A stretch of 64,000 nucleotides of DNA from Anaerolineaceae bacterium (GCA_026708325.1 JAPOVC010000014.1:496001-560000); one strand, 5' to 3'; shown: positions 6,883 to 26,708, counted from the stretch's first letter. The notes: generated by a model not told the origin, from the sequence alone. A program made the numbers and translations.

Positions 6883-8493
6883 CTAGAATGCCGCCACCAG
6901 ACCGTCCGCGCGAGGTTCGCTGCCACCCCGCAACACGCCACCGTCCGGGTCTCGCAAGATGATTTGGCCGCGGCCGAACACGCGCCGGGCCCAACCCGAC
7001 ACCGGTCGGACGCGGTGGCCTTTCCCACCAAGGGCCGCCATGGTGCGGACCGGCACCCCTTCCTCCAGCAAGAGCTCGCCGTTCGGTTGACCGTCGGCGA
7101 CCATCCAGCGCGGCCGGTTGAGTGCAGCCTGCGGGTCAAGTCCGTCATCCAGCATGGCACTGACGACCTGAAAATGCCCCTGCGGCTGCATGAATCCGCC
7201 CATCACGCCAAAGCAGCCATGAAGCTCGCCATCACGCAAGAGCATGCCGGGAATGATCGTGTGATAAGGGCGCTTGTTCGGCGCCAGTTCGTTGGGGTGG
7301 CCAGGTTCCAGACTGAACCCGGAACCGCGGTTCTGCAGCCAGACACCCGTGCCGCGCGCCACGATCCCCGAACCAAAGCCCATGAAGAGACTCTTGATGA
7401 AGGAACAGGCGTTGCCCTCACCATCCACCGCGCAGAGGTAGATAGTGTCCGATGCGCCGGGCGGCTGACCCGGCGGCTGCGGCGGCAAGGTTTGTTGCGC
7501 ATTGATCAATTTGGCGCGACCCGCCGCGTAGTCCCGGCCCAGCAGGAAGTCGGTCGGGACCAGGCTGAAGGCCGGGTCCGCGATGTGCCAGCGCGCGTCG
7601 GCCCAGGCCAGACGCATGCACTCCACCATCAAATGCATGCGTTCCGGGTCGTCCCAGGCCAGGCTTCCCAGGTCGAAGTTTGAGGCCATATTGAGCGCCA
7701 GCAGAGCAGTCAGGCCCTGTCCGTTGGGCGGGCACTCCACGACAGTCGTCCCTCGATAGTCGCTGGAAATCGGCGCGTCGAAGGTCGTGTGATGGGCCTT
7801 CAGGTCTTCAACGGTCAACACGCCGCCCTGCTCCTGCACGGTGGCGGCAATCGCCTCGGCCACCGGCCCCTCATAGAAGGCTTGCGGCCCGCCCTCTGCG
7901 ATGCCGCGCAGGGTTCGCGCCAGTTCCTCGAGCACGATGACCTGCCCGGGGACCGGGGACCGGCCGCCCGGCAAGTACTCTCCTGCATGAGGAGCCACCC
8001 GCAGCAGGTCGGCCTGGCCCGCCCAACCCACGCCGAACACGGGCGCCAGCGGAAAGCCCTTTGCAGCGTAATGAATGGCGTCGACCAGCACCTGCGCCAG
8101 CGACATGCTGCCGTGGCGCTCAAGCAGGTCCGCCCAGCCCTGCACCGCGCCGGGCACAGTCACCGCATGGGCATGACGCGCCGGCATGGCCCGCCATCCA
8201 CGCTGACGGAGATCTTCGGCATTCAGGGCAGCCGGCGCCCTGCCACTGCCATTGAGCGCCGTCACTTCGCCGCTGTGGGCATCGAAATGCAGGGCAAAGC
8301 AGTCGCCGCCGATCCCGCAGGCGGCGGGTTCGGTCACGTTCATGACCGCCGACATGGCGACGGCGGCGTCCGCAGCGCGACCGCCCTGGCGCAGAATGTT
8401 CAGGCCGGCCTGGGCAGCGAGAGGATTGCTGGCGGCCGCCATGCCGCGCCGGGCCAGAACAGTGGACCGGCGAGAATCAAATTGCATGCTCAT
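6883..8493 (-). CDS. ggt: gamma-glutamyltransferase-like protein
   Basis: Ntn-hydrolase of the gamma-glutamyltranspeptidase family, which cleaves or transfers gamma-glutamyl groups (glutathione and similar amides). The 536 residues contain the early GIGGDCF motif, the substrate-binding NRG..F and PNKRPYHTIIPGM blocks, and a processing/catalytic Thr at about residue 350 in DTIYLCAVD, which aligns with the TTHYSVVD block of E. coli GGT. The residues after that Thr differ from the classical enzyme (IYL instead of THY), so its substrate may differ too, as in the YwrD group. No signal peptide is apparent, so it is probably cytosolic. It starts 13 bp after the upstream M24-fold gene and is likely co-transcribed with it. 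Confidence 0.85.
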   Translation of the reverse strand: MSMQFDSRRSTVLARRGMAAASNPLAAQAGLNILRQGGRAADAAVAMSAVMNVTEPAACGIGGDCFALHFDAHSGEVTALNGSGRAPAALNAEDLRQRGWRAMPARHAHAVTVPGAVQGWADLLERHGSMSLAQVLVDAIHYAAKGFPLAPVFGVGWAGQADLLRVAPHAGEYLPGGRSPVPGQVIVLEELARTLRGIAEGGPQAFYEGPVAEAIAATVQEQGGVLTVEDLKAHHTTFDAPISSDYRGTTVVECPPNGQGLTALLALNMASNFDLGSLAWDDPERMHLMVECMRLAWADARWHIADPAFSLVPTDFLLGRDYAAGRAKLINAQQTLPPQPPGQPPGASDTIYLCAVDGEGNACSFIKSLFMGFGSGIVARGTGVWLQNRGSGFSLEPGHPNELAPNKRPYHTIIPGMLLRDGELHGCFGVMGGFMQPQGHFQVVSAMLDDGLDPQAALNRPRWMVADGQPNGELLLEEGVPVRTMAALGGKGHRVRPVSGWARRVFGRGQIILRDPDGGVLRGGSEPRADGLVAAF

Positions 8494-11855: not shown

Positions 11856-12983
11856 TTAGTCAGGTCCGAGGTTTTCGAGCAGCAATACGAAGGTCTTGCC
11901 CTTCAGTGCATTGCCTGGCGCTGCCACCCAGGGTTTGGCAATGATATCCGGCAGGCCATTACCGCACACATCGCCAACCACGGCTTCATGCCCTCCCAAA
12001 CCGGCATCGAGAATCACGTGCTCTCGCCAGGATCCGCCCAGGCCGTCCAGATTCTCCTGGATGAACCAGCGTGGCCGGCCATCACCCGCCACGTGCTCCA
12101 TCTCACAGGTGAATATGTCGCAATCGCCGTCGCCATCCAGGTCACCGACGTAAAGACTGTGATACGCGCCGCGCCGGGTCGCGTCGCCGTTGGGAATCTC
12201 GTGACGACGCCAGTTCTGCCCCCGGCCATCAAGGTTTTCCATCCACCACAGCTTGCCACCGGGTATCTCCGCGTCGCAGAACACAATGTCATTGCGCCCG
12301 TTGCGGTTCATGTCACACACAACGGCGCGCGTGGCGTCAAATGCAAAATATGGCTGGAAATCCGGCGGCGGATACGACGTTGGGCCGATCGGGCGGACCT
12401 GCCAGAAACTGGCATCGCCCCGCACGTTTTCGTACCAGACGTTGCTGCGGACGATATCCAGCGAACCGCTGCCGTTCAGGTCGCCGACGGCGGCGCCGGC
12501 GTGTACGGCAGGACCAATGACAGCCCAGGGCCACTTGTCCTCAGGTGAATTCGGAATCTTGTAACAGCGCAAATCGTTGCGGTCCGACATGGTGATGACT
12601 TCCGCCCGGCCGTCGCCGTCCAGATCGGCCGCGAGCACGTCATGGACACCCTCCAGGGCGGCATCGAACACGATCCGTTCAAAGGGACGATCCGGGTGAC
12701 GCGAATTGCGGTACCAGGCGCCGCCAGTGACCAGGTCCGGCCAGCCGTCGCCATCCACGTCCAGAACGCAAGCGCCGACGTCGGAGGGTGAGTCTTCCCC
12801 CAAAACGTGCCGCGTCCAGCTGCCATCCGAGCGCCGCCGGTAGCGAAAAATCGTCCCAAATTGTTGTCCGGTCACGAACTCGGGGATCCCGTCGCGATCG
12901 AAGTCGGCGAGCGCCGTTTGCGCGTAGAAGCGCCCTGGCAGGGAGTCGTCAATCAATTGCTGGCGGAAGCGAAAACGGGTCAT
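11856..12983 (-). CDS. FG-GAP/VCBS repeat propeller protein without signal peptide (P1)
   Basis: A 375-residue beta-propeller-type protein with about seven repeats of the calcium-loop form DxDGDGxxD/E (for example ADFDRDGIPEFVTG, LDVDGDGWPDLVTG, ADLDGDGRAEVI, GDLNGSGSLDIV). The start at 12983 (MTRFRF) follows GGGGGAC and sits 14 bp after the preceding stop. There is no signal peptide or membrane segment, unusual for FG-GAP proteins, which are mostly exported. The C-terminal third carries a signature shared with three other propellers in the window: HSL near a GDLDGDG loop, then CEM, then GGHEA, then IIAKPW. It is the last gene of the operon that holds the sulfatase and Opp-type importer. Intracellular sugar processing is an inference from context. 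Confidence 0.75.
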   Translation of the reverse strand: MTRFRFRQQLIDDSLPGRFYAQTALADFDRDGIPEFVTGQQFGTIFRYRRRSDGSWTRHVLGEDSPSDVGACVLDVDGDGWPDLVTGGAWYRNSRHPDRPFERIVFDAALEGVHDVLAADLDGDGRAEVITMSDRNDLRCYKIPNSPEDKWPWAVIGPAVHAGAAVGDLNGSGSLDIVRSNVWYENVRGDASFWQVRPIGPTSYPPPDFQPYFAFDATRAVVCDMNRNGRNDIVFCDAEIPGGKLWWMENLDGRGQNWRRHEIPNGDATRRGAYHSLYVGDLDGDGDCDIFTCEMEHVAGDGRPRWFIQENLDGLGGSWREHVILDAGLGGHEAVVGDVCGNGLPDIIAKPWVAAPGNALKGKTFVLLLENLGPD

Positions 12984-12997
12984 CCAGTCCCCCGGAT

Positions 12998-14140
12998 TCA
13001 GCCAAATTCGGGCAGCCACAAATGAATCGCGTCTACGTCTGGCGGGCGGGGCGCATTGGAGCGCAGACTGCGAAAGGGCTTGCAAACAATCCCTGTCAAG
13101 CCGTCAAGCCGAATCGCCTTTGACTCATGTGTGCCCAGGCCCGCGTCGATGACTTGTTCCTGCAAACGCCCCTGCCGGTTGTACCAGATGCACTGGGCCG
13201 GCGGATGTTCATCCTGCCCGGCCGGGTCTCCCAGTTCCCCTACAAACAGGTCGGGTGCTCCGTCGCCATCGAAATCTGCGACGATCAGGGAGTGCGGATC
13301 AAGCAGGTCATCGCGCAGGACTTCCACCTGCCACAGCGCGGTCAAGTCATCGCCGGGACGACAGCGCGCCACGCGGCCGAATCGACTGCGTCCCTGGCGC
13401 GGTCCGTAGATAGTGGCATCGCCTTCCGACAATATGATTTCCGGTCTGCCGTCTCCCCTGAAATCGGCGACGGCGACCCGCGGCGACAGGAATCCTTCAG
13501 CGAAGGGAAAGCGCTGCCAGTCTCCACCAGGTTTCGGAGGAGGACGATACCAGGACTGACCGGCCACGAGCTCCAGGCGCCCGTCACCATCCAGGTCCGC
13601 TGCAGCGAGGCCCTCCTCGCGCAAGCCGTTGGCAACGACCTGCACGTCGGGCCAGGGCGAAACGGTCGGGTCCTGCGGGACCGGGGCACAAAACAGTGCG
13701 TCACCCAGCTGGTTCCAGAAGTACACTTCCGGCCGGCCGTCGCCATCAATATCCGCAACCAGCTGGTCATGGGACATGGGACCGGGCATGCGGAAAATTT
13801 CCCGCCCGATCCAGGGTTGGGTGGCATCTGGCGGGTTTTCCCACCAGAAGACGCAATTGTCACTCGCCGGCGTGCCGGCCACGAAGTCCAGTCGACCGCT
13901 GCCGTTGATGTCGGCAAGATAGCCGCCGGCCGCGAGCGGCTGTCCCTCGCCGATGACGTGGCGTTGCCAACTGCCATCTGCCGCCCGACCAAGCCAGAAC
14001 AACTCCGCACGCGGCCCCCGACTGGCAATCACGATGTCCTCGACGCCATTGCCGGAGACGTCGCCAACGACGCAGATCGTACGCTCACCCGGCGGTCCGC
14101 AGTAAATCCGGTGGCGCCGCCAGCGCGGCAGTTCAGTCAT
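12998..14140 (-). CDS. FG-GAP/VCBS repeat propeller protein without signal peptide (P2)
   Basis: A 380-residue propeller protein with six calcium-loop repeats (GDVSGNGVEDIV, ADINGSGRLDFV, ADIDGDGRPEVY, ADLDGDGRLELV, ADFRGDGRPEII, ADFDGDGAPDLF). It is clearly paralogous over its whole length to the protein at 33818-34951, repeat by repeat. The shared signature is present: DPHSLIVADFDGDG, VGELGDP, GTHESKA, IVCKPF. The ATG overlaps the sulfatase stop by 8 bp, which suggests coupled translation. No signal peptide is visible, so it is expected in the cytosol. Function unknown; a lyase, dehydratase or hydrolase acting on a sugar is a hypothesis only. Confidence 0.78.
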   Translation of the reverse strand: MTELPRWRRHRIYCGPPGERTICVVGDVSGNGVEDIVIASRGPRAELFWLGRAADGSWQRHVIGEGQPLAAGGYLADINGSGRLDFVAGTPASDNCVFWWENPPDATQPWIGREIFRMPGPMSHDQLVADIDGDGRPEVYFWNQLGDALFCAPVPQDPTVSPWPDVQVVANGLREEGLAAADLDGDGRLELVAGQSWYRPPPKPGGDWQRFPFAEGFLSPRVAVADFRGDGRPEIILSEGDATIYGPRQGRSRFGRVARCRPGDDLTALWQVEVLRDDLLDPHSLIVADFDGDGAPDLFVGELGDPAGQDEHPPAQCIWYNRQGRLQEQVIDAGLGTHESKAIRLDGLTGIVCKPFRSLRSNAPRPPDVDAIHLWLPEFG

Positions 14141-15488
14141 GGCCTTGCTCCCACTCTGCCGCCGTCAACAGGGCTTCGCCTGGCGAAATACTGTCCGTGT
14201 CGTTTAACAGCGATCCCGGCGCCGCAGGAATTCGCCCGCTCAACAGGGGATCATCACTCGCCAGCATCCAGCGCTCCAGTCCGCGACGCATATCAGCCAA
14301 CACCGCCGCATGGGCAGGATCCGACGCCAGATTCACCCTTTCTGCCCGGTCCAGCAACAGGTCATGCAGACGCTCTTCAGCAAGTTCCAGTGCCGGCCAG
14401 CCGGACTCCATCCACAGGGATTTCGACGGGCTGTCCTCCACGTTGCACAGGACCGGTTCCCGCCGGGTGTCAAAGCGTCGAATGTATTTCCAGCGTTCGC
14501 TGCGCAGGGAGCGCTGAGGTTCCCAGGCGGCGTGATAGTTGATTTCTGCGAACAAGGCCTCGTACAATCCCCCGCCCTTTCTGCGCAACAGGGGCAGAAG
14601 TGACTTCCCCTGCAGCCAGTCCGGAAAGGGAATGCCCAGCAGATCGCACAGCGTCGGAAAAAGGTCCAGATGGGAGACCAGTGCATCCACTTCCAGCCCT
14701 GCGTCAAATCCTCCCGGTCCGCCAATGATCAAGGGGACACCAAGCCCCAAATCACTCAGGGTGCACTTCATGCCAGGGAAGGGCGGGCCATGGTCACTGG
14801 TGAAGATGACCAGCGTGTCGTCCCTTAGACCTGCCGCCGCCAGGCAGTCCAGCACGTCGCCGATGCCCCCGTCCAGGACTTCCAGGCTGGCGTGAAAGCC
14901 CGCCATGTCACGCCGCGTGTCCGGCGAGGCCGCCATGGGCACTGCGGCGTGGCAAAGCCGGTCCACCGGTTCCGCGTGGGGAAACGGGCGATGGGTCTCA
15001 AAAAAGCCCAGAGACATGAAGAAGGGCTGTTCTGGCGGGCTACGGAAAAACTCGCAGGCGGATTGTACGACAGCCTCCGCCCGGGGAGCGTCAAGCACCG
15101 TGCCTGGCGGATGGCCCGGCGGCGGCGTACCCAACGCCGCCAGCTGATCGTAGCCGAGTACACGGACATCACGCGCCAGGTGTTGTACGCCCACAAGGGC
15201 CGTGAAATAGCCGTATGCCTTAAGCGTATAACAAAGGTGTTGGCGATAATCATTCAGGGCGAAGCCGCGGTGCGCCAGACCGGTCATACCGCAACTGTGC
15301 GGCATTTGTCCGGTCATGAGTCCGGCGCGGGCCGGCGAGCACATTGGCGCCACACAAAAGGCCGTGCGAAAGTTTACTCCCTCCTGCGCCAGTTGCATCA
15401 GGGCGGGCATACGCACATGGTGTCCCAGGGGCTCGATACAACGCCCGGTATCGTGCGAATGGATGAGGAGGATGTTTGGTCGATTCAC
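14133..15488 (-). CDS. sulfatase (formylglycine type)
   Basis: A 451-residue sulfatase of the alkaline phosphatase superfamily. It opens with RPNILLIHSHDTGR and carries the active-site signature CSPARAGLMTG (Cys about residue 50) that a formylglycine-generating enzyme would convert. Further metal-site blocks are FTSDHGPPFPGMK and the conserved HRGFALNDY region. The GTG at 15488 was chosen: it begins at the conserved N-terminus and forms a GTGA overlap with the upstream propeller gene, while an in-frame extension upstream runs through that gene. No signal peptide is visible, so it probably desulfates imported sugars in the cytosol, which fits its place in an importer operon. No maturase (FGE) gene is in the window. 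Confidence 0.88.
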   Translation of the reverse strand: MNRPNILLIHSHDTGRCIEPLGHHVRMPALMQLAQEGVNFRTAFCVAPMCSPARAGLMTGQMPHSCGMTGLAHRGFALNDYRQHLCYTLKAYGYFTALVGVQHLARDVRVLGYDQLAALGTPPPGHPPGTVLDAPRAEAVVQSACEFFRSPPEQPFFMSLGFFETHRPFPHAEPVDRLCHAAVPMAASPDTRRDMAGFHASLEVLDGGIGDVLDCLAAAGLRDDTLVIFTSDHGPPFPGMKCTLSDLGLGVPLIIGGPGGFDAGLEVDALVSHLDLFPTLCDLLGIPFPDWLQGKSLLPLLRRKGGGLYEALFAEINYHAAWEPQRSLRSERWKYIRRFDTRREPVLCNVEDSPSKSLWMESGWPALELAEERLHDLLLDRAERVNLASDPAHAAVLADMRRGLERWMLASDDPLLSGRIPAAPGSLLNDTDSISPGEALLTAAEWEQGHD

Positions 15489-17716
15489 CCACGGTCCCCG
15501 TTGGCGGCAGTCCAAAGGTGGACGTAACGACTGTCGCGCCAGCCATGGCTCACGATCCCCTGCACCCCTGGCGCAAGGGTGATCAGGCGGGTCCCGTCGT
15601 GATGTTCGAAGCGATTGTCCAGTTCCCGCCTCGTCCATGCCCTGCCCCGCTCGTCGGCCTTGCTGTAGACGTAGAGCTTGCACTGGTTGCGATAGGGCCA
15701 GAAGGGATCGTGCTCGGCCGCAATGACTTCGGGCTGGCCATCACCGTCCAGGTCAGCCACCTCCACGGAATGCGGGCAGCGCATGATGTCGATGACATGC
15801 ATGGGCCAGGGGACATCCCGCGGGTCCGGCGGGCATTCAAACCAGGCAAGCTTCGAGAAGGTCGCCACACGGCTTTCGAAATCAAGCACTTCCTCTCCGA
15901 GGACAACATCAAGGCGACCGTTGCCGTTGATATCCTGGACCCGCAGACGCGCGCTGTAGAAGTCCGCGTCGCCGACGAAGCGGTGGGGGTGGAACTCGCC
16001 ATCGCCCTGGTTCTCCAGCCAATAGGGTCCGGCCACCACGTCCAGCAGGCCGTTTCCGGTGAGGTCGACGGGGACCATTTCCTCGCCATAAACAATTTCC
16101 GCAAGGGTGCGAACCGGCCAGGGACCGGAGCGCAGGTTCTGCGGCACTTCAAAAAGCTGGGGATAGTGCTCCCTGCCCTGATTGGCGCTGTGCCAGGAAG
16201 CGATCAACGCCAGTCCACCGTCTGGCAGGAGTGGCGCGACCGCGTTGCCATGCGGCCAATCGCCACCGCCCACGCCGATCGGATATTCTCTCCACTCGCC
16301 CTGCAGGGGATCGATGGCCTTCAGCCACACGAGTTCGTTCGAGAGCCCCGGCGCGCCCGCCTCCATGCCTCCGGCGGGGGTCCGGGTGGCAATCAATTCG
16401 TTACGCCCGTCGCCATCCAGGTCATATGCTGCGATGACCTGCGCGACTCCCGGAATGTGACGACGTTCCCAGTCCGGATTGCGATACCACCAGCGACCGC
16501 AAATGACGTCTTCAAGGCCATCGCCATCCACGTCGGCGGCGAGGATGTCCGTGCCCGTCGCCGGCTTGTCGCGGTCGATAAAGAGGTGCCGCCAGTCCTT
16601 CAGCGGGTTCCGGTCTTCTTTTGCGGCCTTCCAGATGGTGACCCGTGGCCGCCAGCACTCCTTGCCCACAATTTCAACCTCGCCATCGCCGTCAATGTCT
16701 ACGGCCATGCCCTCGTGGGTACCGGCCCCCTGAGAGAGCATCTCGCGCTCCCAGCTGCGGCCCTTGTCCGGCGAGGTGTAAAGAAGCAGTCGCGCGTCAT
16801 GATTGTATGGCGGGCTCCAGCCGCCCTGGGCCATCTCCCCGACAAAAATCTTGATTGCGTCGCCATCCTTCCAGGCGCTGAGCGAATGGGAATAGAGCAA
16901 GGGCGTTTCCTCCAGGCGATGTTCCACCCAGGGGCGTTCCGGACTCCGGGCCAGACGGTTTTCGAACCATGACAGACGTCCGTCCATGTATTCCGAGTCA
17001 GTAATGACCAGGTCGTCATGGCCGTTGCCGGTGATGTCGATGGCCGCGACACGACACATTTCGCGAAATGACGGCGCCCAGGTGCGCATCTCCCAGGGGC
17101 CGGACCAGGGGCCGTCGGCCGGCATGGTGAGCCAGACGGGACCGGCAACGATTTCCAGACGGCCATCGCCGTCAAGATCCGAGGCGGCTATGCCTTCCGT
17201 GAAGTTGCCGCTCATGGCCTCGTGCTTGCGCCAGGGCGCGGACTCATCCTCGTCGGGCCTGTAAATGAATATGCCGGGGACCGGGCAATAGGCGGCGTTT
17301 GCCACCAGTTCATTGCGGCCATCGCCATCAATGTCGGCGAAGCAGACGTCGTGCGCGCCGCCATTGCAATGGGGATCGATGACCTGCATCGTCCAGGGAC
17401 CGTCCAGCGAGTCCCCTGGCCGAAAGCGAACAATCATCCAGCGGTCGTCGTGTTCGGAATCCTTCAGTCCGCAGACCGCTTCCAATATGCCGTCTCCGGC
17501 GATGTCTTCCAGCACCAGCCCAACGTGAACGTGGCCCTCGGCAACAACGCCCCGCTCAAATGTGTCCGGCCGGTACCAAAGCAGGCCGCCCTCGCCGCCG
17601 ACCAGCAATTCAATGTGTCCGTCCCCGTCAACGTCGCCTGCCGCCAACGCCCCCAACATTTCCACGGGCGGATTGCCGTCCAGCACCAGCAGTTCCCAGG
17701 CGTTTTTGATCGACAT
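15485..17716 (-). CDS. large FG-GAP/VCBS repeat propeller protein without signal peptide (P3)
   Basis: A 743-residue protein with about eleven DxDGDG-type loops (among them GDVDGDGHIELL, ADIDGDGRNELV, SDLDGDGRLEIV, ADVDGDGLEDVI, QDINGNGRLDVV, ADLDGDGQPEVI), enough for two propellers. The shared signature lies in mid-protein at the end of the presumed first propeller: YSHSLSAWKDGD, VGEMAQG, GTHEGMA, IVGKECW. The second half ends with FEHHDGTR and a SHGWRDSRYVHLW segment. The start has GGGAGAG at good spacing and no signal peptide. It overlaps the downstream sulfatase start by 4 bp (GTGA). Domain doubling suggests fusion of two related units. Confidence 0.78.
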   Translation of the reverse strand: MSIKNAWELLVLDGNPPVEMLGALAAGDVDGDGHIELLVGGEGGLLWYRPDTFERGVVAEGHVHVGLVLEDIAGDGILEAVCGLKDSEHDDRWMIVRFRPGDSLDGPWTMQVIDPHCNGGAHDVCFADIDGDGRNELVANAAYCPVPGIFIYRPDEDESAPWRKHEAMSGNFTEGIAASDLDGDGRLEIVAGPVWLTMPADGPWSGPWEMRTWAPSFREMCRVAAIDITGNGHDDLVITDSEYMDGRLSWFENRLARSPERPWVEHRLEETPLLYSHSLSAWKDGDAIKIFVGEMAQGGWSPPYNHDARLLLYTSPDKGRSWEREMLSQGAGTHEGMAVDIDGDGEVEIVGKECWRPRVTIWKAAKEDRNPLKDWRHLFIDRDKPATGTDILAADVDGDGLEDVICGRWWYRNPDWERRHIPGVAQVIAAYDLDGDGRNELIATRTPAGGMEAGAPGLSNELVWLKAIDPLQGEWREYPIGVGGGDWPHGNAVAPLLPDGGLALIASWHSANQGREHYPQLFEVPQNLRSGPWPVRTLAEIVYGEEMVPVDLTGNGLLDVVAGPYWLENQGDGEFHPHRFVGDADFYSARLRVQDINGNGRLDVVLGEEVLDFESRVATFSKLAWFECPPDPRDVPWPMHVIDIMRCPHSVEVADLDGDGQPEVIAAEHDPFWPYRNQCKLYVYSKADERGRAWTRRELDNRFEHHDGTRLITLAPGVQGIVSHGWRDSRYVHLWTAANGDRG

Positions 17717-17763: not shown

Positions 17764-18831
17764 TCAGCCGCGGCTCTCTTTCCGACCCATGCGAAGCTGC
17801 GGAGGATTGCTGCTGGCATGGATGATGTTGCTCAGGGAGACGTGGTCGTTACAATCGGCCAGGCCCACGCTGAAGTGCGCCGGTACGCGCAGCAAGGACT
17901 TGGTCAAGCCACTACGGCCAAATCCGAAGACCGTCATGTTGCCTTCCATCGGCCAATAGGAATCGGCGTCGCCATCCGCTTCGTGGCGCATGAGCCAGAG
18001 CGCGCGGGGGCTCCCTGATGCGCCGAAGGCGATCCAGCCGGGCTCCGGCAAGCGTTCCATTTCCCAGCGCACCGAGGCGGCGAATCTCCGACCGTCGGCA
18101 AGCAGCAAGAAGTCGCCCTGCTCGTCCAGTCTGCCGCCTGGCGTGCCCTCATAAAGTAGCCAGTACGGGCGTGCGGCTTTCAGTACCGTCAGTCGCGCGC
18201 AGTCAGGTTCCAGCCTCCACTCACAGCGCCAGGCATCATCGTTGGAGCGGGAGAAGATGACGACGCGCAGGGGGCCGCTCGCGACAACCTCGCTACTGCA
18301 ACCCGTCCGACCAGGATGAAAGTAACTTTCGGGATGCACCAGGTTGGGTATGCCGCGGTAATTCCCGTCCGAACCGCCCCGGGGGTGGTAACTGATCCAG
18401 TCGGCGCCAACGCTGTCGATCATTCCGGCGAAGCCGCCGCCCTCCAGATGATAGATCCACGAGACGCGGGGAGAATCAATGCGAATGCTGGCAAAGCCCT
18501 CATGGTCGAGACCCCTTGTCAGGGACAGGGGCCCTGGCACTGGTTCCGGATCAACCATTTCTGCATCCGGGGCGTCGAAATACATCTGAAAATGACGCGT
18601 TTGACCGGCTCCGGTTTCTCCCTTCAAATGAAACAGCAATTCTTCATCGCAGGGTTGCAGGCACACAGCCGCATCCAGCAACTGGCCTTCAGCATCCACC
18701 TCCACCACGCGGGGCGAGGCGACGGATTCAGGCAACTCCAGAGGGACGGCGCGCTCGAAATGATCGTGGTCCCCGGCAATGAGATCAATCTGAATTCGCC
18801 ACAAACGGTCCCGCAGATGCCATGCCTTCAT
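17764..18831 (-). CDS. uncharacterised protein, probably sugar-related
   Basis: A protein of about 355 residues that I do not recognise as a named enzyme. It resembles, from memory, uncharacterised proteins common in Planctomycetota and related groups that share DWISYHP...YRGIPN (about residues 140-165), YWLLYEGTPGG (near 230) and NMTVFGFGRSGL near the C-terminus. It looks mostly beta-stranded, has no signal peptide and no membrane segment. ATG at 18831 is preferred; a TTG at 18840 would overlap the ATPase stop as TTGA. It lies between the importer genes and the FG-GAP/sulfatase genes, so a role in processing the imported compound is likely but unproven. Confidence 0.65.
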   Translation of the reverse strand: MKAWHLRDRLWRIQIDLIAGDHDHFERAVPLELPESVASPRVVEVDAEGQLLDAAVCLQPCDEELLFHLKGETGAGQTRHFQMYFDAPDAEMVDPEPVPGPLSLTRGLDHEGFASIRIDSPRVSWIYHLEGGGFAGMIDSVGADWISYHPRGGSDGNYRGIPNLVHPESYFHPGRTGCSSEVVASGPLRVVIFSRSNDDAWRCEWRLEPDCARLTVLKAARPYWLLYEGTPGGRLDEQGDFLLLADGRRFAASVRWEMERLPEPGWIAFGASGSPRALWLMRHEADGDADSYWPMEGNMTVFGFGRSGLTKSLLRVPAHFSVGLADCNDHVSLSNIIHASSNPPQLRMGRKESRG

Positions 18832-18836
18832 TCGAC

Positions 18837-19859
18837 TCAATCCGTCATCTGCCAGGGCTGCAGGTCCAGTTCGTCCGCCAGATGACAGGCCACACTGGTG
18901 TCGGGGTCAGAGGCCAGAGGCCTGAGGGCCGGAATCTCGTTGCGACAACGGTCCTCGACGTACTTGCAACGCGTGTGAAAAACACAGCCTGAGGGCGGGT
19001 TGACCGGGCTGGGGATGTCGCCCTCCAGCACTCTCCGGCGCCGGTGGCCGCCGGCGCTGCGACGGGGAATGGCGTAAAGCAGGGCTTCGGTGTAGGGATG
19101 AGTCGGACGGGCAAAAATCTTGTCGCGCGAAGCACTCTCCATGATCTTGCCCAGATACATCACCAGGATGCGGCTGCTGATGTACTCCACGACCCCAAGA
19201 TCATGCGCAATGAAAATGTAGGTCAGGCCCAGTTCCTGTTGCAGGTCCGTTAACAGATTGAGGACCTGGGCCTGGACGGAAACGTCCAGCGCCGAAACCG
19301 GTTCGTCACAAATCACCAGTTGGGGCTCAATGCTCAACGCCCGTGCCACACCGACCCGCTGACGCTGTCCACCGGAAAGCTGATGCGGGTAGCGATTGAT
19401 CATGTCCTCGCCAAGGCCGACCTGGGCCAGCAGGCCTGCCACTCGCTCCGCCCTTGAGCGCCTGTCGCCAATGTCATGGATCTCCAGGGGTTCTGCGACT
19501 ATGTCGCCGATGCGCATGCGCGAATTCAGCGACGAATTTGGGTCCTGAAACAACATCTGGATGTCACGTCTAACTGACCGCAACTCACGCCTGTCAAGTC
19601 GGGCAATATCCACGACGCCTTCGTCGCGATTGAAATGAATGCTGCCTGAGGTGGGATCGTAAAGGCGAACGATACAGCGCCCGGTGGTCGTCTTGCCGGA
19701 GCCACTTTCTCCTACCAGACCCACGGTCTCGCCCCGCCGGACGTCAAAGGAAACGCCATCCACGGCCCGAACGTTGCCGACGATGCGTTTCATCAGGCCC
19801 TTGCGGATGGGGAAATACTGTTTCAGGTCTACAACACTGAGCAGCGTGTCGCTATCCAC
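18837..19859 (-). CDS. peptide/oligosaccharide ABC transporter ATP-binding protein (DppF/OppF-like)
   Basis: Second ATPase of the Opp/Dpp-type importer. Walker A is GESGSGKTT, the signature is [16 protein letters not shown], and Walker B is [12 protein letters not shown]. The C-terminal region has the conserved cysteine-bearing oligopeptide/dipeptide transporter domain ([13 protein letters not shown]), which in this family often binds an iron-sulfur cluster. The GTG at 19859 gives an 8-bp overlap with the upstream ATPase gene and 340 residues; an ATG at 19913 would add 18 residues and a 62-bp overlap. The next gene follows without a gap. Confidence 0.92.
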
Positions 19860-20877
19860 GGGCCGACTCCGCTTCGTCCTCGAAGAGCCAGCAGGCAGCG
19901 CTGGTTGATTCATTGATTTGGAACACGGGAGGCGCTTCGCTGCGACATCTGTCCATTACGTGCGGGCAGCGGGGCGCGAAAGAGCAACCGGCCGGCCTTT
20001 CGTGCGGACCCGGCACGCTTCCCTCAATGGAGGACAAACGGTCGCGCCGTCCGATCTGCGGCAGGGATTGCAGCAATCCCTGGGTATAGGGATGTTTGGG
20101 GTCCTCGAATATGCTGTCGACGGAAGCGGCCTCGACCACCTTGCCCAGATACATCACGATCACCTGGTCGGCTATCTCGCCGATCACGTTTAGATCATGG
20201 GTGATCATGATCAGGGCCATGTCCCGCTCTTCCTGAATCTGACGAATCAGGTCGAGGATCTGGGCTTCAATCGTCACATCAAGGGCCGTGGTGGGCTCAT
20301 CGGCGATCAGGAGTTGCGGGTTGCAACTCAGCGCCATGGCGATCATGGCACGTTGGCGCATGCCACCCGAATACTGGTGCTGGTACTGGTCGACCCGCTG
20401 TTCGGCTTCCGGTATGCCCACCAGCCCCAGCATGTCGATGGCACGTTGGCGCGCCTCGTCCTTGCCCACCTGTTGATGCAGGCGAATCGCTTCCATGATC
20501 TGGTAGCCGATCGAATAAACCGGATTGAGGGAGGTCATCGGCTCCTGGAAAATCATGGCAATTTCATTGCCGCGAATCGATCGGATTTCCATCCCGTGAG
20601 GATCGAGTTGCACAAGGTCCAGTTGGCGACCGCCGGCCGGGTTCCACACAATTTCCCCGCCGGTGATGCGGGCAGTATCGAGGGGCAACAGCCGCATGAC
20701 GGAGCGGGCGGTAACGCTTTTGCCGCAACCGCTTTCTCCCACAATGCCCAGGGTTTCTCCGCGCCGCAACGCGAAACTTACGCCGTCGACGGCGCGGATG
20801 ATGCCTTGCTCAAGATAGAACCAGGTCTTGAGGTCACGCACGTCGAGCAGGGTCGCGGTTTCCAGATTGGCCTCCAT
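19852..20877 (-). CDS. peptide/oligosaccharide ABC transporter ATP-binding protein (DppD/OppD-like)
   Basis: First ATPase of the importer, about 341 residues. Walker A is GESGCGKSV, the signature block is [16 protein letters not shown], and Walker B is [12 protein letters not shown], followed by an H-loop THDL. The C-terminal part has the oligopeptide domain with the cysteine motif [13 protein letters not shown]. The ATG at 20877 is one base after the permease stop (TGAGATG); a TTG at 20889 is possible and would add four residues. It acts at the inner face of the membrane with the DppF-like partner that overlaps its 3' end. Confidence 0.92.
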
Positions 20878-20878
20878 C

Positions 20879-22075
20879 TCAACGCGCAAAGGGATCCGCC
20901 ATGTCCCTTAGTCCGTCACCCAGAAAATTGTAGGCGATGACGGTGACCAGGATGAAAATGCCCGGAAACAGCGTCCAGGGATACAGCACAATGTTTTGAA
21001 TCCGGATTGCGTCGTTCAGCAGCAGTCCCCAGCTGACCATCGGCGGTCGCACGCCGATACCAAGGAAACTTAGTGCGCTTTCACCCAGAATGGTCACGGG
21101 TACGGCCAGGGTCGCCGTGACGATGATGTGGCTGGCCATGTTGGGGATCATGTGACGACGGACGATTCTCGCTGTGGAAGAACCGGTTGCCTCGGCCGCG
21201 TGAACGAAGTCGCGCTCCTTAAGGGAGAGCACCATGCCCCGCACCTCGCGCGCCAGCCCTGTCCAGTTGATGAATGCCAGCACCACCACGATGCCGGCAT
21301 AGACCCATTCCGGTGGCCATTGGGGCGGGATGGCGGCGGCCAGGGCCATCCAGAGCGGCAATTGCGGGAAGGAACGAATCGCCTCGATCGCGCGCTGCAT
21401 CACGTGGTCAAAGGCGCCGCCGTAATAACCCGACAGCGTGCCAAGCACGGAGCCCAGCACGATGGTGATCAATACGCCGAAGATGCCGACCGAAAGCGAC
21501 ACCTGGCCGCCAAATATGATGCGCGACAGCAAGTCCCGTCCCCGTTGGTCCGAACCCAAAACGTGCAAGCGTTCCTCGTAGCCGCGCGGCCCGAAGAGAT
21601 GAATATCGCCCTTCAGGAATCCCAGGGCCGTCCAGGATTCACCACGTATGAAGAAGTCGATGGGGATGCGTTCACTGCGGTCCTCTTCGTAAATTAACTG
21701 AAAGGTCCTGGGATCGCGCTGCCCGCGAAGCGGATAGAAAAAAGGTTGAATGTGAAAGATTCCGGTTTCCGGATCCAAAAATCGAACCGTGACTGGCGGC
21801 GAAAAGGTGAGTTTTGAATCGGCATCGCGTGCGCTGTAAGGCGCAAAGAATCCCGCAAACAGGATCATGAGGTAAATGAAGACAAGCAACACAGCGCACC
21901 AGGTCGCCATGCGGTTGCGCAAAAACTTGCGCAGCATCAACTCCCGCACCGAAAGCAGGCGGTATTCGTCCTCGCTGATGGCGCGACGCGAGACGCTGGC
22001 GCCAAACAGACCCCGCAGGACCGAACGCGTTGGCTGGCGGGCTGTCAGGTCACTCAATCTGGATCCTCGGGTCAC
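20879..22075 (-). CDS. peptide/oligosaccharide ABC transporter permease (DppC/OppC-like)
   Basis: Inner-membrane permease of about 398 residues, longer than the usual 300 because of a hydrophilic extracytoplasmic insert of about 100 residues after the first helix (roughly residues 75-170). The OppC family blocks follow: [20 protein letters not shown], then the ATPase-contact loop [19 protein letters not shown], then [10 protein letters not shown]. Start is uncertain: GTG at 22075 overlaps the upstream gene by 26 bp; TTG at 22057 has a better GAGG site and an 8-bp overlap. The large insert is often seen in Opp-type systems of bacteria that import glycans, so it does not mark a peptide substrate. 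Confidence 0.9.
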
Positions 22076-23042
22076 TGATAGCCAGAAGAATATCTGCCAG
22101 GAAATTGCCGACCAGAAGGGTGACGGCCAGGATCATCAGTACCGTGCCGGCCAGATACATGTCCTGACGCTGAAGCGCCCGGATGAAGGGCGGCCCCAGT
22201 GTGGGAAGATCAAGGACGATCGAGATGATGACCGTGCCACTGAACAGGGCCGGCAGTTGCAAACCCAGGCGACTGATCAGTGGGTTGATGGCGATGCGGG
22301 CCGCGTGCTTGTAGATGACCACCATTTCCCGCAGACCCTTGGCGCGGGCGGCCTCAATATATTGCTGGTCCAGCACGTCAAGCAAATTGGCGCGCATCAG
22401 GCGAAAGGTGCCCGCCATGCCCCCCAGACCAAGGATGAGAAAAGGCACGGGCAAATGCGACAGGAAGTCAAGAAAGCGCTCCCAGGTCCAGGGCGCATTC
22501 TTGAACTCCATTGAAAACAGGCCGCCAGCGTAGTCCGTCTTGAGCACGAAGACTGCAATGAACAAATAAATGACGGCCACCAGAAAGTCCGGCACGGAAA
22601 TCCCTATAAAGGACAGGGTGGACAATACGTAATCTGTTCGCGAGTTCTTGCGTGTGGCCGCATAAATGCCGAAAGGAATGGCCAAACTCCAGGACAGGAA
22701 AAGCGAGGCGAAACCCAGAAACAGGGTCAGGCCCACACGGCGATTGATAATTTCCGCAACTTCGCTGTTACTGTAAGCAATCGAAAAGCCGAAATCCCCC
22801 TGGGGGAAGCCGTCAATCCACTTGACATATTGCACCAGGACCGGCTCATCGAAGCCATAGACACGCCGCAACCTTTCAATGGTCTCGGGCGGCAAGGGCT
22901 GGCCCGAGGCCGCTTCCTGTTGCCGCACCCAGTTGGACACAATGTCGCCGGGCGGCAGTTGAATCACCAGAAAGCTGACCAGCGAGACCAGAAAAAAGGT
23001 AAAGACTGCGGAAATGAGGCGTCGAACGATGTAGGTTGCCAT
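22050..23042 (-). CDS. peptide/oligosaccharide ABC transporter permease (DppB/OppB-like)
   Basis: Inner-membrane permease of 330 residues. It opens with the OppB pattern MATYIVRRLISAVFTFFLVS and carries the ATPase-contact loop YIEAARAKGLREMVVIYKHA (about residues 230-250) and a C-terminal [18 protein letters not shown]. It forms the channel with the DppC-like protein whose gene overlaps its 3' end. It lies 75 bp after the binding-protein gene, with a stem-loop in the gap. The family is certain; whether the cargo is peptide or oligosaccharide cannot be read from it. Confidence 0.92.
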   Translation of the reverse strand: MATYIVRRLISAVFTFFLVSLVSFLVIQLPPGDIVSNWVRQQEAASGQPLPPETIERLRRVYGFDEPVLVQYVKWIDGFPQGDFGFSIAYSNSEVAEIINRRVGLTLFLGFASLFLSWSLAIPFGIYAATRKNSRTDYVLSTLSFIGISVPDFLVAVIYLFIAVFVLKTDYAGGLFSMEFKNAPWTWERFLDFLSHLPVPFLILGLGGMAGTFRLMRANLLDVLDQQYIEAARAKGLREMVVIYKHAARIAINPLISRLGLQLPALFSGTVIISIVLDLPTLGPPFIRALQRQDMYLAGTVLMILAVTLLVGNFLADILLAISDPRIQIE

Positions 23043-23057
23043 TGGGTTTCCGTCAGT

Positions 23058-23091
23058 GGCGGTCGCCGGGAATGTGCCACCGACGACCGCC
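23058..23091 (-). promoter_or_regulatory. stem-loop between family 5 binding protein and permease genes
   Basis: A perfect 8-bp inverted repeat (GGCGGTCG at 23058-23065, CGACCGCC at 23084-23091) with an 18-base loop lies in the 75-base gap between the binding-protein stop and the permease start. No T-run follows it on the minus strand, so an mRNA-stabilising or attenuating stem-loop is more likely than a full terminator. Confidence 0.5.
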
Positions 23092-23117
23092 GATTGTGAC
23101 CAACAGGTCAGTTATGG

Positions 23118-24959
23118 TCAGGGACCTTCACCCGGTAGATATTTCTCGAAAAGCAGCATCGGCTGCCATGGTGGCATGTCGTTGACCTGACCGTTGCGGG
23201 ACATGATGTCCGGCGTATTGCCCAGGCGACCACTCTTGACGAAGGGGCGACGCCAAAAGCCGGTCGCCACCACCCAAACGTTGTCAGCGTGCAGGCGGGA
23301 AATCTCGCGCGCAATGTCTCCCCGGTTCGCCGGTATGATGCCCAGGGCCTGCTGATACAGATCGTTCATTTGAATGAAGGCATCATCGACGGGATCAGCC
23401 TGCCAGTTGCGGTGCCACCAGGGCGACCCTTCTCCGATGGAAGCCACACCCGGCGCTTCCGCGCTGAAGGGATCGCTGCCGCCGTCACGGTCCCAGGTGT
23501 GAATCTCAAAGTCACCGGCGACGTAACGTTCACGCACCAGGGACTGGTCGTCGGCGTCCATGAGGGCGTTGATCCCCACGTTGGCCATGTATTCAGTCAC
23601 CAGTTCGACAATGGGCGTGTATAGATCGTGTACGCCTACCTCGATGATGATTTGCAGGGCTTCTCCACCCGGCGCCTCGCGGAAGCCATCGCCGTCTGTG
23701 TCGACGTAACCGGCACCCTCCAGCAGGGCTGCGGCGCCCTCGGGGTCAAAGCCCGACCAGAGCATGGCATCGTCTGCGTCGAAGAAACCGGATTCCGGCG
23801 CAAAAACCGAACCGGCCGGGTTAAAGAGGCCGGCATAGTAGAGGTCTCCGATTTCCTGGCGGTTGATCGCCATTGAGAAGGCGCGGCGGAAGTTGACGTC
23901 GCGGAAGGCGGCCTTCTTGACCGGGTCCTCGATATCCAGGTTGAAGTAGAAGGCTACGCCGTCGAAGTCGGCAAAAGTCAGGCTGATGTCACGCCCTTCC
24001 TGAATGGCCTCGGTGAACAGCTGAATGTGCTGCACGCCAACCCACATGGCATCCAGGTCAAACTGGCCCGTGACGTTGCCAAGCGCAACCGCCTGACGGT
24101 CCTCGACCATCTCCACGGTGGCGAAGTCCATGTACGGCAGTTGCTGCCCTTCAGGATCGACCTTCCAGTAGTATGGGTTGCGCCTCAGCTTGTAGATTTC
24201 GCCAGGAATGAACTCGTCCAGCATCCAGGCCTGCAGCGTTACACTCCCTCGCCCGTTCTCCAGCAGGTTTTCGACATTGAAGATTTCGTAGGTGGATTCG
24301 GCATTGTAGGCAGGGTGAAACTGCTCAAGATAGTGACGTGGCCAGGCAAACTCGCGCATCGTCGCCAGTCCTTCGGCGAAGGCCGGGAAGGGTGTCGGGT
24401 ATGTGAAGCGAAGCGTGACATCATCCACGATTTCCAGGGCCGGTAGTTCGCCACCCTGGGTGATGGGTCCGGCGCCGGAAACTCCCGATACGCTTTCGTC
24501 CTGCACAACATCGTTCCAGAAAAATTCCACGTCAGAAGTGGTCAGGGGCGTACCATCAGACCATTTGACGCCGCTGCGTAGCTTCACCGTCCAGACCGTG
24601 AAATCATCGTTGGATTCCCAGCTTTCGGCCAGATTCGGCCGAATGGGACCGTCACCGGTGACCGGCAAATGCCACATGGTCAGCGGTTCCCGTGTGAAGT
24701 TGTGGGTCAGGTAGGGCCCCAACCAGGCCGTACCGCGCCTGAGTGTCCCGCCGTAACCGCCAATTTCTTCCAGAGGCTGGAGGACCAGCGGGTTGTCGGG
24801 CAGGCGCTCTTCCAGCGGCGGCAGTTCTCCGGCAGCCACCTGCTCCGCAAGCATGGGGGCTTCGCTGTACATCATGTCCTGCGCCGACAGGCCACTTGCC
24901 GAGACCAGTAGCACGAGCACAAGAAACATGGTGGTTCTTGTCAATCTTGCGAACGACAT
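23118..24959 (-). CDS. family 5 ABC transporter substrate-binding protein
   Basis: Secreted receptor of the Opp/Dpp-type importer, 613 residues, at the large end of the family (usually 500-550). The signal peptide covers about residues 1-26 with cleavage expected before QD, and there is no lipobox. Family blocks include LAESWESNDDFTVWTVKLRSGVKWSDGTPLT and the later AINRQEIGDLYY region. The ATG has a GGAGA site. Family 5 receptors bind peptides, nickel or oligosaccharides. The sulfatase and sugar-type genes downstream favour an oligosaccharide, by inference. It is the first gene of a ten-gene operon that ends at 11856. Confidence 0.92.
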   Translation of the reverse strand: MSFARLTRTTMFLVLVLLVSASGLSAQDMMYSEAPMLAEQVAAGELPPLEERLPDNPLVLQPLEEIGGYGGTLRRGTAWLGPYLTHNFTREPLTMWHLPVTGDGPIRPNLAESWESNDDFTVWTVKLRSGVKWSDGTPLTTSDVEFFWNDVVQDESVSGVSGAGPITQGGELPALEIVDDVTLRFTYPTPFPAFAEGLATMREFAWPRHYLEQFHPAYNAESTYEIFNVENLLENGRGSVTLQAWMLDEFIPGEIYKLRRNPYYWKVDPEGQQLPYMDFATVEMVEDRQAVALGNVTGQFDLDAMWVGVQHIQLFTEAIQEGRDISLTFADFDGVAFYFNLDIEDPVKKAAFRDVNFRRAFSMAINRQEIGDLYYAGLFNPAGSVFAPESGFFDADDAMLWSGFDPEGAAALLEGAGYVDTDGDGFREAPGGEALQIIIEVGVHDLYTPIVELVTEYMANVGINALMDADDQSLVRERYVAGDFEIHTWDRDGGSDPFSAEAPGVASIGEGSPWWHRNWQADPVDDAFIQMNDLYQQALGIIPANRGDIAREISRLHADNVWVVATGFWRRPFVKSGRLGNTPDIMSRNGQVNDMPPWQPMLLFEKYLPGEGP

Positions 24960-25080: not shown

Positions 25081-25560
25081 TCAGCAGCCTTCCGGCGCCG
25101 GTTCGCGCGTGTAGAGATTGTCGATCTCCTTCATCCTTCGAACCTTCGGCCCGGACGGGCTGCCCTCGTCAAACTCCGCCTCCAGCCAGGCATCCACAAT
25201 GGCTTTCCCCAGTTCCGGCCCGATGACCCGTGCGCCCATGGTCAGAATCTGTGCATCGTTACTCTTGCGGGCACGTTCGGCGGAATAGGTGTCATGGCAC
25301 AGGGCGGCGCGAATGCCTGGAATCTTGTTGGCCGTGATCGACATACCGATACCCGTGCCGCAGACGAGAATCCCCCGCTGGCAACGTCCCTCGGCCACCG
25401 CCCGGGCCACTCGTTCCGCGACATCCGGGTAATACTCTTCGCCATCGCCTTGCGCAGCGCTGAGGTCCAACAGCGTCGCCTGGCTGCCGGCCTGCAAGTG
25501 GCTGATCAGGACCGCCAGCAATGGCGCTCCGGCGTCGTCACTGCCCGTCGCGATGTGCAT
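25081..25560 (-). CDS. rpiB: RpiB/LacAB-family sugar-phosphate isomerase
   Basis: Aldose-ketose isomerase of the RpiB family, 159 residues. It begins MHIATGSDDAG, has the active-site Cys motif LVCGTGIGMSITANKIPGIR (Cys about residue 67), then the catalytic His region LCHDTYSAERARKSNDAQIL. The length is normal for the family. RpiB converts ribose-5-phosphate to ribulose-5-phosphate, but relatives act on allose-, galactose- or tetrulose-phosphates, so the substrate is open. The ATG has a clear GGGAGG site and overlaps the end of the E2 gene by 23 bp. Its place after three 2-oxoacid dehydrogenase genes is unusual for a pentose-pathway isomerase and suggests a dedicated catabolic pathway. Confidence 0.85.
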   Translation of the reverse strand: MHIATGSDDAGAPLLAVLISHLQAGSQATLLDLSAAQGDGEEYYPDVAERVARAVAEGRCQRGILVCGTGIGMSITANKIPGIRAALCHDTYSAERARKSNDAQILTMGARVIGPELGKAIVDAWLEAEFDEGSPSGPKVRRMKEIDNLYTREPAPEGC

Positions 25561-26707
25561 CCCTGCCTCCCTGCAACAAGAGTTTCAGCGGGTTTTCCAA
25601 CATAACAACAAGGTCCTCCAGGAAACGGGCTCCCTGGATCTCGGAGGGCGCCCCCGGCCCGTCGGCTATCGTCAGGGTCAACGCCATGGCGGGTCGCAAC
25701 TCTGCAGGGCCGTCATCGTGTGAGAGATGGCGCCACACTGTCCTGCCCGCGCCCAGGCTGGCGACGGCGGCGGGTCCTGTTCGGGCCGCAACCCTGTCGG
25801 GCCCGCGTTCGCCCAGGTCGCAAATGCGGAAGCTCTCCCTGTCGGCAGATGCGCCTCCGATACTCCAGGGGGCTTCTCCCCGCGGCATTTTCGGCCAGGC
25901 TTTCAACAATGCCCGTAATGAAAGACTGTCGGCAGTTTCAAGCACTGCTACCGAATGCCCGTCGCCACATGGGGCAACCAGACCCGGCAGGATCTTGTCC
26001 TGCGGCACGTAGCGCCCGCCGAGCTTCCACGCGTTTAGCGCAGGATTCCTGAGCAGGGCCTGCGTGCAGGCAAATGCCAACAGGGCGCTCCGATCAAGCG
26101 GCAACTCTTCTTCGGGCCACATGTCCTGCAGGGCGAGGAGCGGTGACATATCCACCGAGGTCTCCAGCACGACCGAAGCATTGGAGGCTTCGGCCAGTTG
26201 ACCAGCCTGCTCCACGTCGATTGCCTGAACCCGGCCAAGCGGTCCGGTGCCTCGCAAACTTTCCAAATCTACACGCCGGACCCGCGCCAGATGCCGGGCC
26301 GCCGGCGTCGCGCGGACGCGCGAACCCGCACGCGCGACAGAGATGACAGCGTCCCCTGACGCATTGGCCGGCATTGGAGCCGGTTCCGACGTGGCGACAG
26401 GCTCCTGACCTACGATTGGCTCCGGATCCCCGCCCCGGGGCCAGGGAGGCAACTGCGCGCCCTGTTCGCCTTCCAGCAGCACCCAGGCGATCGCCGTCAC
26501 GACGGGGACGGTCACGCCTTCGGGAAAGCGTTGCGGGCCCATCAGACCCGAGGCAGGTGCTTCCAATTCCATGTTGACCTTGTCGGTCTCCACCTCGCAA
26601 AGCGGGTCCCCTGCCAGGACTACATCCCCTTCTGCCACCAGCCAGCGCAGGATCCGCGACTGTTCATGCGCGGGGTCAAACCTTGGTAACCACAGTGGAG
26701 CCGGCAC
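25538..26707 (-). CDS. 2-oxoacid dehydrogenase E2 (dihydrolipoamide acyltransferase-like), catalytic His absent
   Basis: A 389-residue E2-type protein. The N-terminal lipoyl domain has the lipoylation lysine in EVETDKVNMELEAP (about residue 42), and a peripheral subunit-binding domain follows (RATPAARHLARVRRVDLESL, about 150-185). The C-terminal region resembles the acyltransferase core, but the conserved HxxxDG active site is not there: the matching place reads LTLTIADGPGAPSEIQGARF. It may therefore not catalyse acyl transfer in the usual way. GTG at 26707 was chosen, one base after the E1beta stop; it begins at the lipoyl domain. No E3 gene lies nearby, so the complex would borrow a housekeeping dihydrolipoamide dehydrogenase. 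Confidence 0.78.
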   Translation of the reverse strand: MPAPLWLPRFDPAHEQSRILRWLVAEGDVVLAGDPLCEVETDKVNMELEAPASGLMGPQRFPEGVTVPVVTAIAWVLLEGEQGAQLPPWPRGGDPEPIVGQEPVATSEPAPMPANASGDAVISVARAGSRVRATPAARHLARVRRVDLESLRGTGPLGRVQAIDVEQAGQLAEASNASVVLETSVDMSPLLALQDMWPEEELPLDRSALLAFACTQALLRNPALNAWKLGGRYVPQDKILPGLVAPCGDGHSVAVLETADSLSLRALLKAWPKMPRGEAPWSIGGASADRESFRICDLGERGPDRVAARTGPAAVASLGAGRTVWRHLSHDDGPAELRPAMALTLTIADGPGAPSEIQGARFLEDLVVMLENPLKLLLQGGRDAHRDGQ

Positions 26708-26708
26708 G

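Follow-up and report, generated by a model that had tools for sequence, protein, structure and literature searches.

The closest described relative, in fold, of the proteins considered here is aldos-2-ulose dehydratase/isomerase (AUDH) from Phanerochaete chrysosporium (PDB 4a7k, 4a7y and 4a7z, the last with ascopyrone M), a fungal enzyme of 900 residues that dehydrates 2-keto-sugars and has a seven-bladed VCBS propeller. Two cupin domains and a lectin domain follow this propeller, which is said to hold a catalytic zinc and a histidine, His155, that Claesson and colleagues reportedly proposed in 2012 as the acid/base of the dehydratase. The PL11 rhamnogalacturonan lyases, among them YesW and YesX, are secreted FG-GAP/VCBS propellers with elimination chemistry, and CRTAC1 and integrin-alpha are extracellular proteins. 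The 3-keto-glycoside eliminases AtOGE and PuCGE are TIM barrels that use Mn2+ and a His base, and the A. tumefaciens operon includes a Gfo-type oxidoreductase (PMC10628242). Here we describe four propeller proteins, P1 to P4, encoded in a 64,000-nucleotide stretch of an Anaerolineae (Chloroflexota) genome, referred to below as the window. Because the modelled propeller has its conserved His, Asp, Glu and Lys residues at one face, AUDH is the nearest structure with its catalytic His in place, and enzymes encoded nearby would make keto-sugars, we give roughly even odds (about 0.5) to the reading that P1, P2, P4 and the N-terminal propeller of P3 are intracellular, metal-dependent keto-sugar dehydratases or eliminases that would act like the AUDH propeller.

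All four open reading frames listed in a first-pass annotation of this DNA are present as it described them. P1 (11856–12983, minus strand, 375 residues), P2 (12998–14140, minus strand, 380 residues) and P4 (33818–34951, plus strand, 377 residues) are single propellers that end with the propeller, whereas P3 (15485–17716, minus strand, 743 residues) is two propellers in succession. The P1 frame reaches 13085, but the likely start is the ATG at 12983, with which its overlap with P2 disappears. Each single propeller and the N-terminal half of P3 have seven blades of the FG-GAP type, the Pfam matches being to PF13517 (FG-GAP_3; E = 1e-24 to 8e-38) and to PF01839. Only generic FG-GAP models of Pfam and NCBIfam exceed their cut-offs for the four proteins, and a search of the literature found no description of proteins of this type; as far as these two databases go, the family is undescribed at the level of its sequences.

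Residues conserved outside the calcium loops

The first-pass annotation had noticed an ordered series of residues in these proteins, namely HSL, a Glu within GEL, GEM or CEM, the motif G-(T/G)-H-E and a Lys, and the series does occur in P1, P2, P4 and the N-terminal half of P3. Genomes of the class and phylum, 858 in all, were searched for homologues, and 42 propeller domains, taken from the first two homologue searches, were aligned to P2. Six polar positions outside the calcium loops proved to be 88–100% conserved in these domains: H124 and D125 (P2 numbering; minus-strand codons at 13769–13771 and 13766–13768), H283 of HSL (13292–13294), E302 of GEL (13235–13237), H338 of THE (13127–13129) and K354 of IVCK (13079–13081). 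The corresponding set in P1 is H114-D115, H161, D237/E239, H275, E294, H332 and K350. The alignment changes the original series in two respects. The Glu of the HE pair varies (Glu in 27 of 42 domains), leaving only its His as a conserved residue, and two members had been overlooked: H124-D125 in blade c, which is conserved equally, and E176 in blade d, which is Glu in 33 of the 42 and has a His one residue earlier in the P1-like group. R221 and an acidic residue (E or D) at 239–241 are conserved in part.

As had been noted from the sequence, these residues are not a by-product of the repeat. A His lies six residues ahead of the first Asp of the calcium loop in blade c (40/42), blade f (42/42) and blade g (41/42), and the same His is nearly missing from blades a, b and e. 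The possibility that the set is generic to FG-GAP repeats is thus rejected by the blade-by-blade counts. Recent duplication was also considered as a source of the common residues and rejected, since P1, P2 and P3 are only 32–34% identical to one another. P4 is 58% identical to P2 and has the same residue set. The C-terminal half of P3 (15485–16618) has a set of its own (E, R, S, E-H, H-H-D and S), which is related to that of the N-terminal half but distinct from it. This half also occurs as a free-standing protein in another locus (L062, 16187–17452; 54% identical), where its gene overlaps a Gfo/Idh/MocA gene and lies next to a GH1 gene.

The AlphaFold2 model of P2 (mean pLDDT 95.6, seven blades) allows these residues to be placed. 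In blades c, f and g the innermost strand opens with a conserved His, and in blades f and g the second strand closes with E302 and K354, respectively. Because neighbouring strands are antiparallel, the starts of the first strands (A) and the ends of the second (B) fall on one face, so that all six residues lie at one end of the modelled propeller, a clustering that the first-pass annotation had proposed to look for; this placement is judged from strand topology rather than from distances. All six polar positions that are at least 85% conserved outside the calcium motif fall at a strand-A start or a strand-B end (hypergeometric p = 8e-4) when the strand-A margin is widened by one residue and the ninth residue of the calcium motif is counted as calcium loop. 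A first, cruder partition put five of nine positions on that face (p = 0.06). The p value for enrichment therefore changes with the boundaries set for the calcium motif and the strand margin, whereas the blade-by-blade counts do not.

A conserved face of this kind might also be expected of a non-catalytic protein, and P1–P4 could be sugar-binding or calcium-dependent scaffold proteins with the face as a ligand site. Lectins and binding modules account for many of the VCBS/FG-GAP propellers (PMC8023676), and lectins are also among the matches found here. Nevertheless, we consider this explanation improbable. Lectins usually repeat one site over several blades, while here the blades differ; a face presenting His-Asp, His, Glu, His and Lys looks more like a catalytic or metal site than a lectin site; and the genes sit among those of intracellular enzymes.

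Structural relation to AUDH and other propellers

AUDH, which the first-pass annotation had named as an example of an enzyme propeller, is the best structural match of the P2 model. It occupies ranks 1–3 in Foldseek (E about 1e-13), and VIA superimposes residues 1–380 of the model on AUDH 16–435 with Z = 37.2 over 353 residues, the next unrelated chain scoring 30.1. In both comparisons AUDH comes first, far ahead of integrins, LGI1 and CRTAC1, and the match is collinear across the whole propeller even though the two sequences are only about 17% identical. HMMER alignments place P2 H124 on AUDH His155, in the same register as the structural match, and align E176, E239 and H283 with Glu216, Glu292 and His337. 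Alignments were needed for such comparisons, since single-sequence searches of the PDB with P1 and P2 were uninformative. The top sequence matches, to CRTAC1 (9etn) and the integrin-alpha propellers, arise through common calcium loops, and the His positions of the P1–P4 set are not conserved in the aligned CRTAC1 blades.

P1–P4 are nonetheless AUDH-like proteins rather than members of the AUDH family, because they have no cupin or lectin domain and score below the Pfam cut-off for AUDH. With PF22301 (AUDH_beta_propeller), P2 reaches 14.5 bits and P4 16.0 bits against a cut-off of 27, and P1 and P3 are not listed; the same model has no match in 100 genomes of the class or in the controls, and is hence uninformative there. 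AUDH continues beyond its propeller, while P1, P2 and P4 stop after theirs. AUDH is plausibly a functional analogue of these propellers.

The PL11 lyases provide a different precedent, according to which P1–P4 would be polysaccharide lyases acting on uronate-containing oligosaccharides. A motif N-H-S-L-x-x-A-D is common to the PL11 propellers and the HSL blade, a GH88 gene and an alginate-lyase-family gene lie near two of the haloarchaeal homologues described below, and the modelled product of an adjacent gene (gene 5) resembles mutarotases and PL26 and PL4 lyases. A lyase activity of this kind seems quite unlikely to us all the same: only the single short His-Ser-Leu blade motif aligns with YesW and YesX, PL11 structures appear well below AUDH in the matches listed (Foldseek rank 36 and lower, and not among the 50 VIA matches listed), Pfam RGL11 gives at most 17.6 bits against a cut-off of 27, and the window genes scanned include no enzyme specific for uronates.

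Export and gene neighbourhoods across the family

No signal peptide is visible in P1–P4, in agreement with what had been noted from the sequence. Over 15 residues near the N-terminus, mean hydropathy peaks at 0.93 or less in the four proteins, compared with mostly >1.9 in exported homologues, which suggests that P1–P4 are probably cytosolic; export was judged here by this hydropathy screen rather than by SignalP. Single-propeller homologues, P3 and the P3 orthologues likewise have no hydrophobic N-terminus, the exception being one protein whose frame is cut (L037), whereas most large double propellers do have one. On a maximum-likelihood tree, 17 of 46 rows look exported, mostly double propellers, and the export label changes only twice. 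Exported proteins are thus a minority of these rows, and because they form two separate clades, the cytosolic homologues are a real group rather than mis-called secreted proteins.

As read from the alignment, the site is common to the cytosolic and exported branches, but it is not invariant. The set persists across three deep cytosolic clades and in Archaea, while H124, E302 and K354 are replaced in one exported branch and in a double propeller of S. meliloti. In the double-propeller relatives L048, L049 and L093 (the last from S. meliloti pSymB) the three give way jointly to Lys, Gln and Ala. Such a joint replacement suggests a different reaction or a lost function. Six haloarchaeal homologues, 35–39% identical to P2 in the alignment, keep H124, D125, E176, R221, E239, H283, E302, H338 and K354. 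These six genes (L087–L092), with the full residue set, are plasmid-borne. Haloarcula hispanica, which is genetically tractable, has a P2-type homologue (HAH_RS18060). Several of the haloarchaeal genes sit in surface-polysaccharide or sugar loci, with genes for a nucleotide-sugar dehydrogenase, glycosyltransferases, a sulfatase, GH88 and alginate-lyase-family proteins nearby. A homologue search of genome contigs reached only a very close relative.

A setting in carbohydrate catabolism, which the first-pass annotation had proposed, is borne out both by the window and by related loci. From 24959 down to 11856 the minus strand carries an ABC importer (18837–24959; two ATPases, two permeases and an SBP_bac_5 binding protein, PF00496), gene 5 (17764–18840), P3, a sulfatase, P2 and P1, separated by short gaps or overlapping. 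The sulfatase (14133–15488) is of the cysteine type, with the motif CSPAR (PF00884, E = 9.8e-34; PF16347), and its likely start, a GTG at 15488, overlaps the stop of P3. It lies inside the propeller operon and has no visible export signal, and is therefore probably cytosolic. Also on the minus strand, at 25081–28698, are an RpiB/LacAB-type isomerase (PF02502) and genes resembling the E2, E1-beta and E1-alpha components of a thiamine-dependent dehydrogenase. Between 28865 and 33821 there follow a GntR regulator, a short-chain dehydrogenase/reductase (SDR), a cyclase-like gene, a ROK kinase and two xylose-isomerase-like TIM barrels; one TIM-barrel gene is on the minus strand, and the plus-strand group ends with P4, whose start overlaps the stop of a TIM-barrel gene. 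A sister species (L055, G001, 7239–7862) is missing about 20.7 kb of this region, its DNA joining window position 13368 directly to 34082, so that the deletion ends inside P2 and inside P4 and fragments of P1, P2 and P4 remain. Since most of the island has been lost there between P1/P2 and P4, the island is a dispensable unit with propeller genes at its borders.

Gene 5 encodes a beta-rich protein for which Pfam and NCBIfam have no family (none of its 16 members matches Pfam), yet several genera keep it next to the importer and the propellers. The structures similar to its model (pLDDT 77) are galactose mutarotases and, in PL26, PL4 and GH38 enzymes, the beta-sandwich portions; a mutarotase-like fold is predicted. 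In another genome (G094), a single exported protein of 1577 residues combines both propellers, a stretch resembling a carbohydrate-binding module and the gene-5 domain, the binding-module label being a reading of the sequence made without a family search.

The neighbours of the propellers recur elsewhere. Two further genera have P1 orthologues (63–66% identical), six in all; immediately after five of these come one or two genes for Gfo/Idh/MocA dehydrogenases, and the sixth is on a 9.6-kb contig. Three of those five loci have the same importer and gene 5 upstream with a GH4 glycosidase between; GH4 genes stand beside P1 orthologues in L076 (from Pfam) and L078 (from the start of the sequence) and beside the P3 orthologue in L083 (from Pfam). 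A Gfo/Idh/MocA gene adjoins the P2-like gene in L063, lies one gene from it in L082 and shares its locus in L062 and L065. In L061 and L066 the P2-like gene adjoins apiosidase-like GH genes, and L067 has an FGGY kinase nearby. L065, from another family, has the importer–P3–P2–E1 set in the order of the window. The importer order upstream of propeller genes is conserved there and in L076–L078, and E1 orthologues occur near propellers in L065, L077, L078 and L083. A DRL-type oxidoreductase (PF21135) is found near P2 or P3 orthologues in L083 and L065, and L065 has the N and C subunits of transketolase as separate genes near them. Overall, of about 11 independent lineages, 6 have a Gfo/Idh/MocA gene in the locus, in most cases adjoining the propeller gene or one gene from it. 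With 22–77 such genes per genome, or roughly 10 per Mb, this co-occurrence is well above the density expectation, as an estimate rather than a formal or permutation test. Besides Gfo/Idh/MocA and GH4, the homologous loci repeatedly contain xylose-isomerase-like proteins and thiamine-dependent enzymes.

A possible role in keto-sugar elimination

From the computed residue conservation, one-face topology, nearest structure and gene context we infer a metal, catalysis, a substrate and an order of steps. According to this scheme, a divalent metal bound at one propeller face would polarise a sugar's keto group, and a His (H124 of P2, at the position of AUDH His155) would abstract the proton next to that group, with elimination of water or of a glycosidic leaving group. 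The ABC importer may bring in a glycan fragment, probably sulfated, from which the sulfatase would remove the sulfate; the window's own sulfatase is what suggests a sulfated substrate. An NAD(P) enzyme, likely the SDR in the window and a Gfo/Idh/MocA or GH4-type enzyme in sister loci, would then oxidise the fragment to a keto-sugar for the propellers to open. Finally, the TIM-barrel proteins might rearrange the product and the thiamine-dependent enzymes cleave it. The proposed logic is that of AtOGE, PuCGE and the GH4 glycosidases, with a keto group near the scissile bond, a metal and a His base, although those enzymes have TIM-barrel or Rossmann-type folds rather than propellers and no homology to P1–P4.

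The same residues and gene context would also fit another sugar-processing reaction, in which the propellers serve either as a hydratase of an enone made by another enzyme or as a metal-dependent keto-sugar isomerase or epimerase. A hydratase is needed in oxidation-elimination-hydration pathways, where TIM-barrel enzymes with Mn2+ carry out the elimination (PMC10628242), and the propeller loci contain TIM-barrel genes as well. Yet AUDH, the one structurally outstanding solved propeller, is a dehydratase, and we regard a different reaction as rather unlikely.

Several observations weigh against a dehydratase or eliminase. D125 and E302 have no counterpart in AUDH, where they align with Arg and with a non-acidic residue, and AUDH blade g could not be aligned, leaving H338 and K354 without matched AUDH residues. 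An earlier profile gave a second register with AUDH His155 on H283, as is possible in any repeat protein; we prefer the register with H124 because the structural match favours it. A profile built from P1 alone does not reach AUDH, so the link to AUDH comes from P2-type proteins and the family at large. In the window's own island no Gfo/Idh/MocA gene was found, and sugar lectins also use propellers. Moreover, the TIM-barrel genes in the same loci could themselves encode the eliminases, as in known 3-keto-glycoside pathways, with another step left to the propellers (PMC10628242).

The first-pass annotation had proposed cytosolic sugar-processing enzymes of an undescribed family. The gene context bears this out, the sequences are new as far as Pfam and NCBIfam go, and the best structural match is an enzyme that the annotation had named; the enzymatic role and the sugar are putative. 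More tentatively, and with less than even confidence, we suggest that P1–P4 may belong to an undescribed class of cytosolic propeller enzymes, eliminases or dehydratases, that is widespread in Bacteria and Archaea. Together with Gfo/Idh/MocA and GH4-type redox partners, such enzymes would open sugars or glycosides by oxidation and elimination instead of hydrolysis, with a propeller in place of the TIM barrel of known eliminases, and an exported branch fused to the gene-5 domain would treat extracellular polysaccharides in the same way.

Existing annotation labels such proteins no further than VCBS or FG-GAP repeat-containing, and they are readily mistaken for adhesion or surface proteins. Given that the named residues are few and that P2 and P4 are single-domain proteins, their function should be simple to test. 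If the proposed activity is correct, a group conserved in Chloroflexota and haloarchaea would gain a testable function, AUDH-type propeller chemistry would extend from one fungal enzyme to prokaryotes, and the breakdown of glycans by redox-elimination would gain a new fold.

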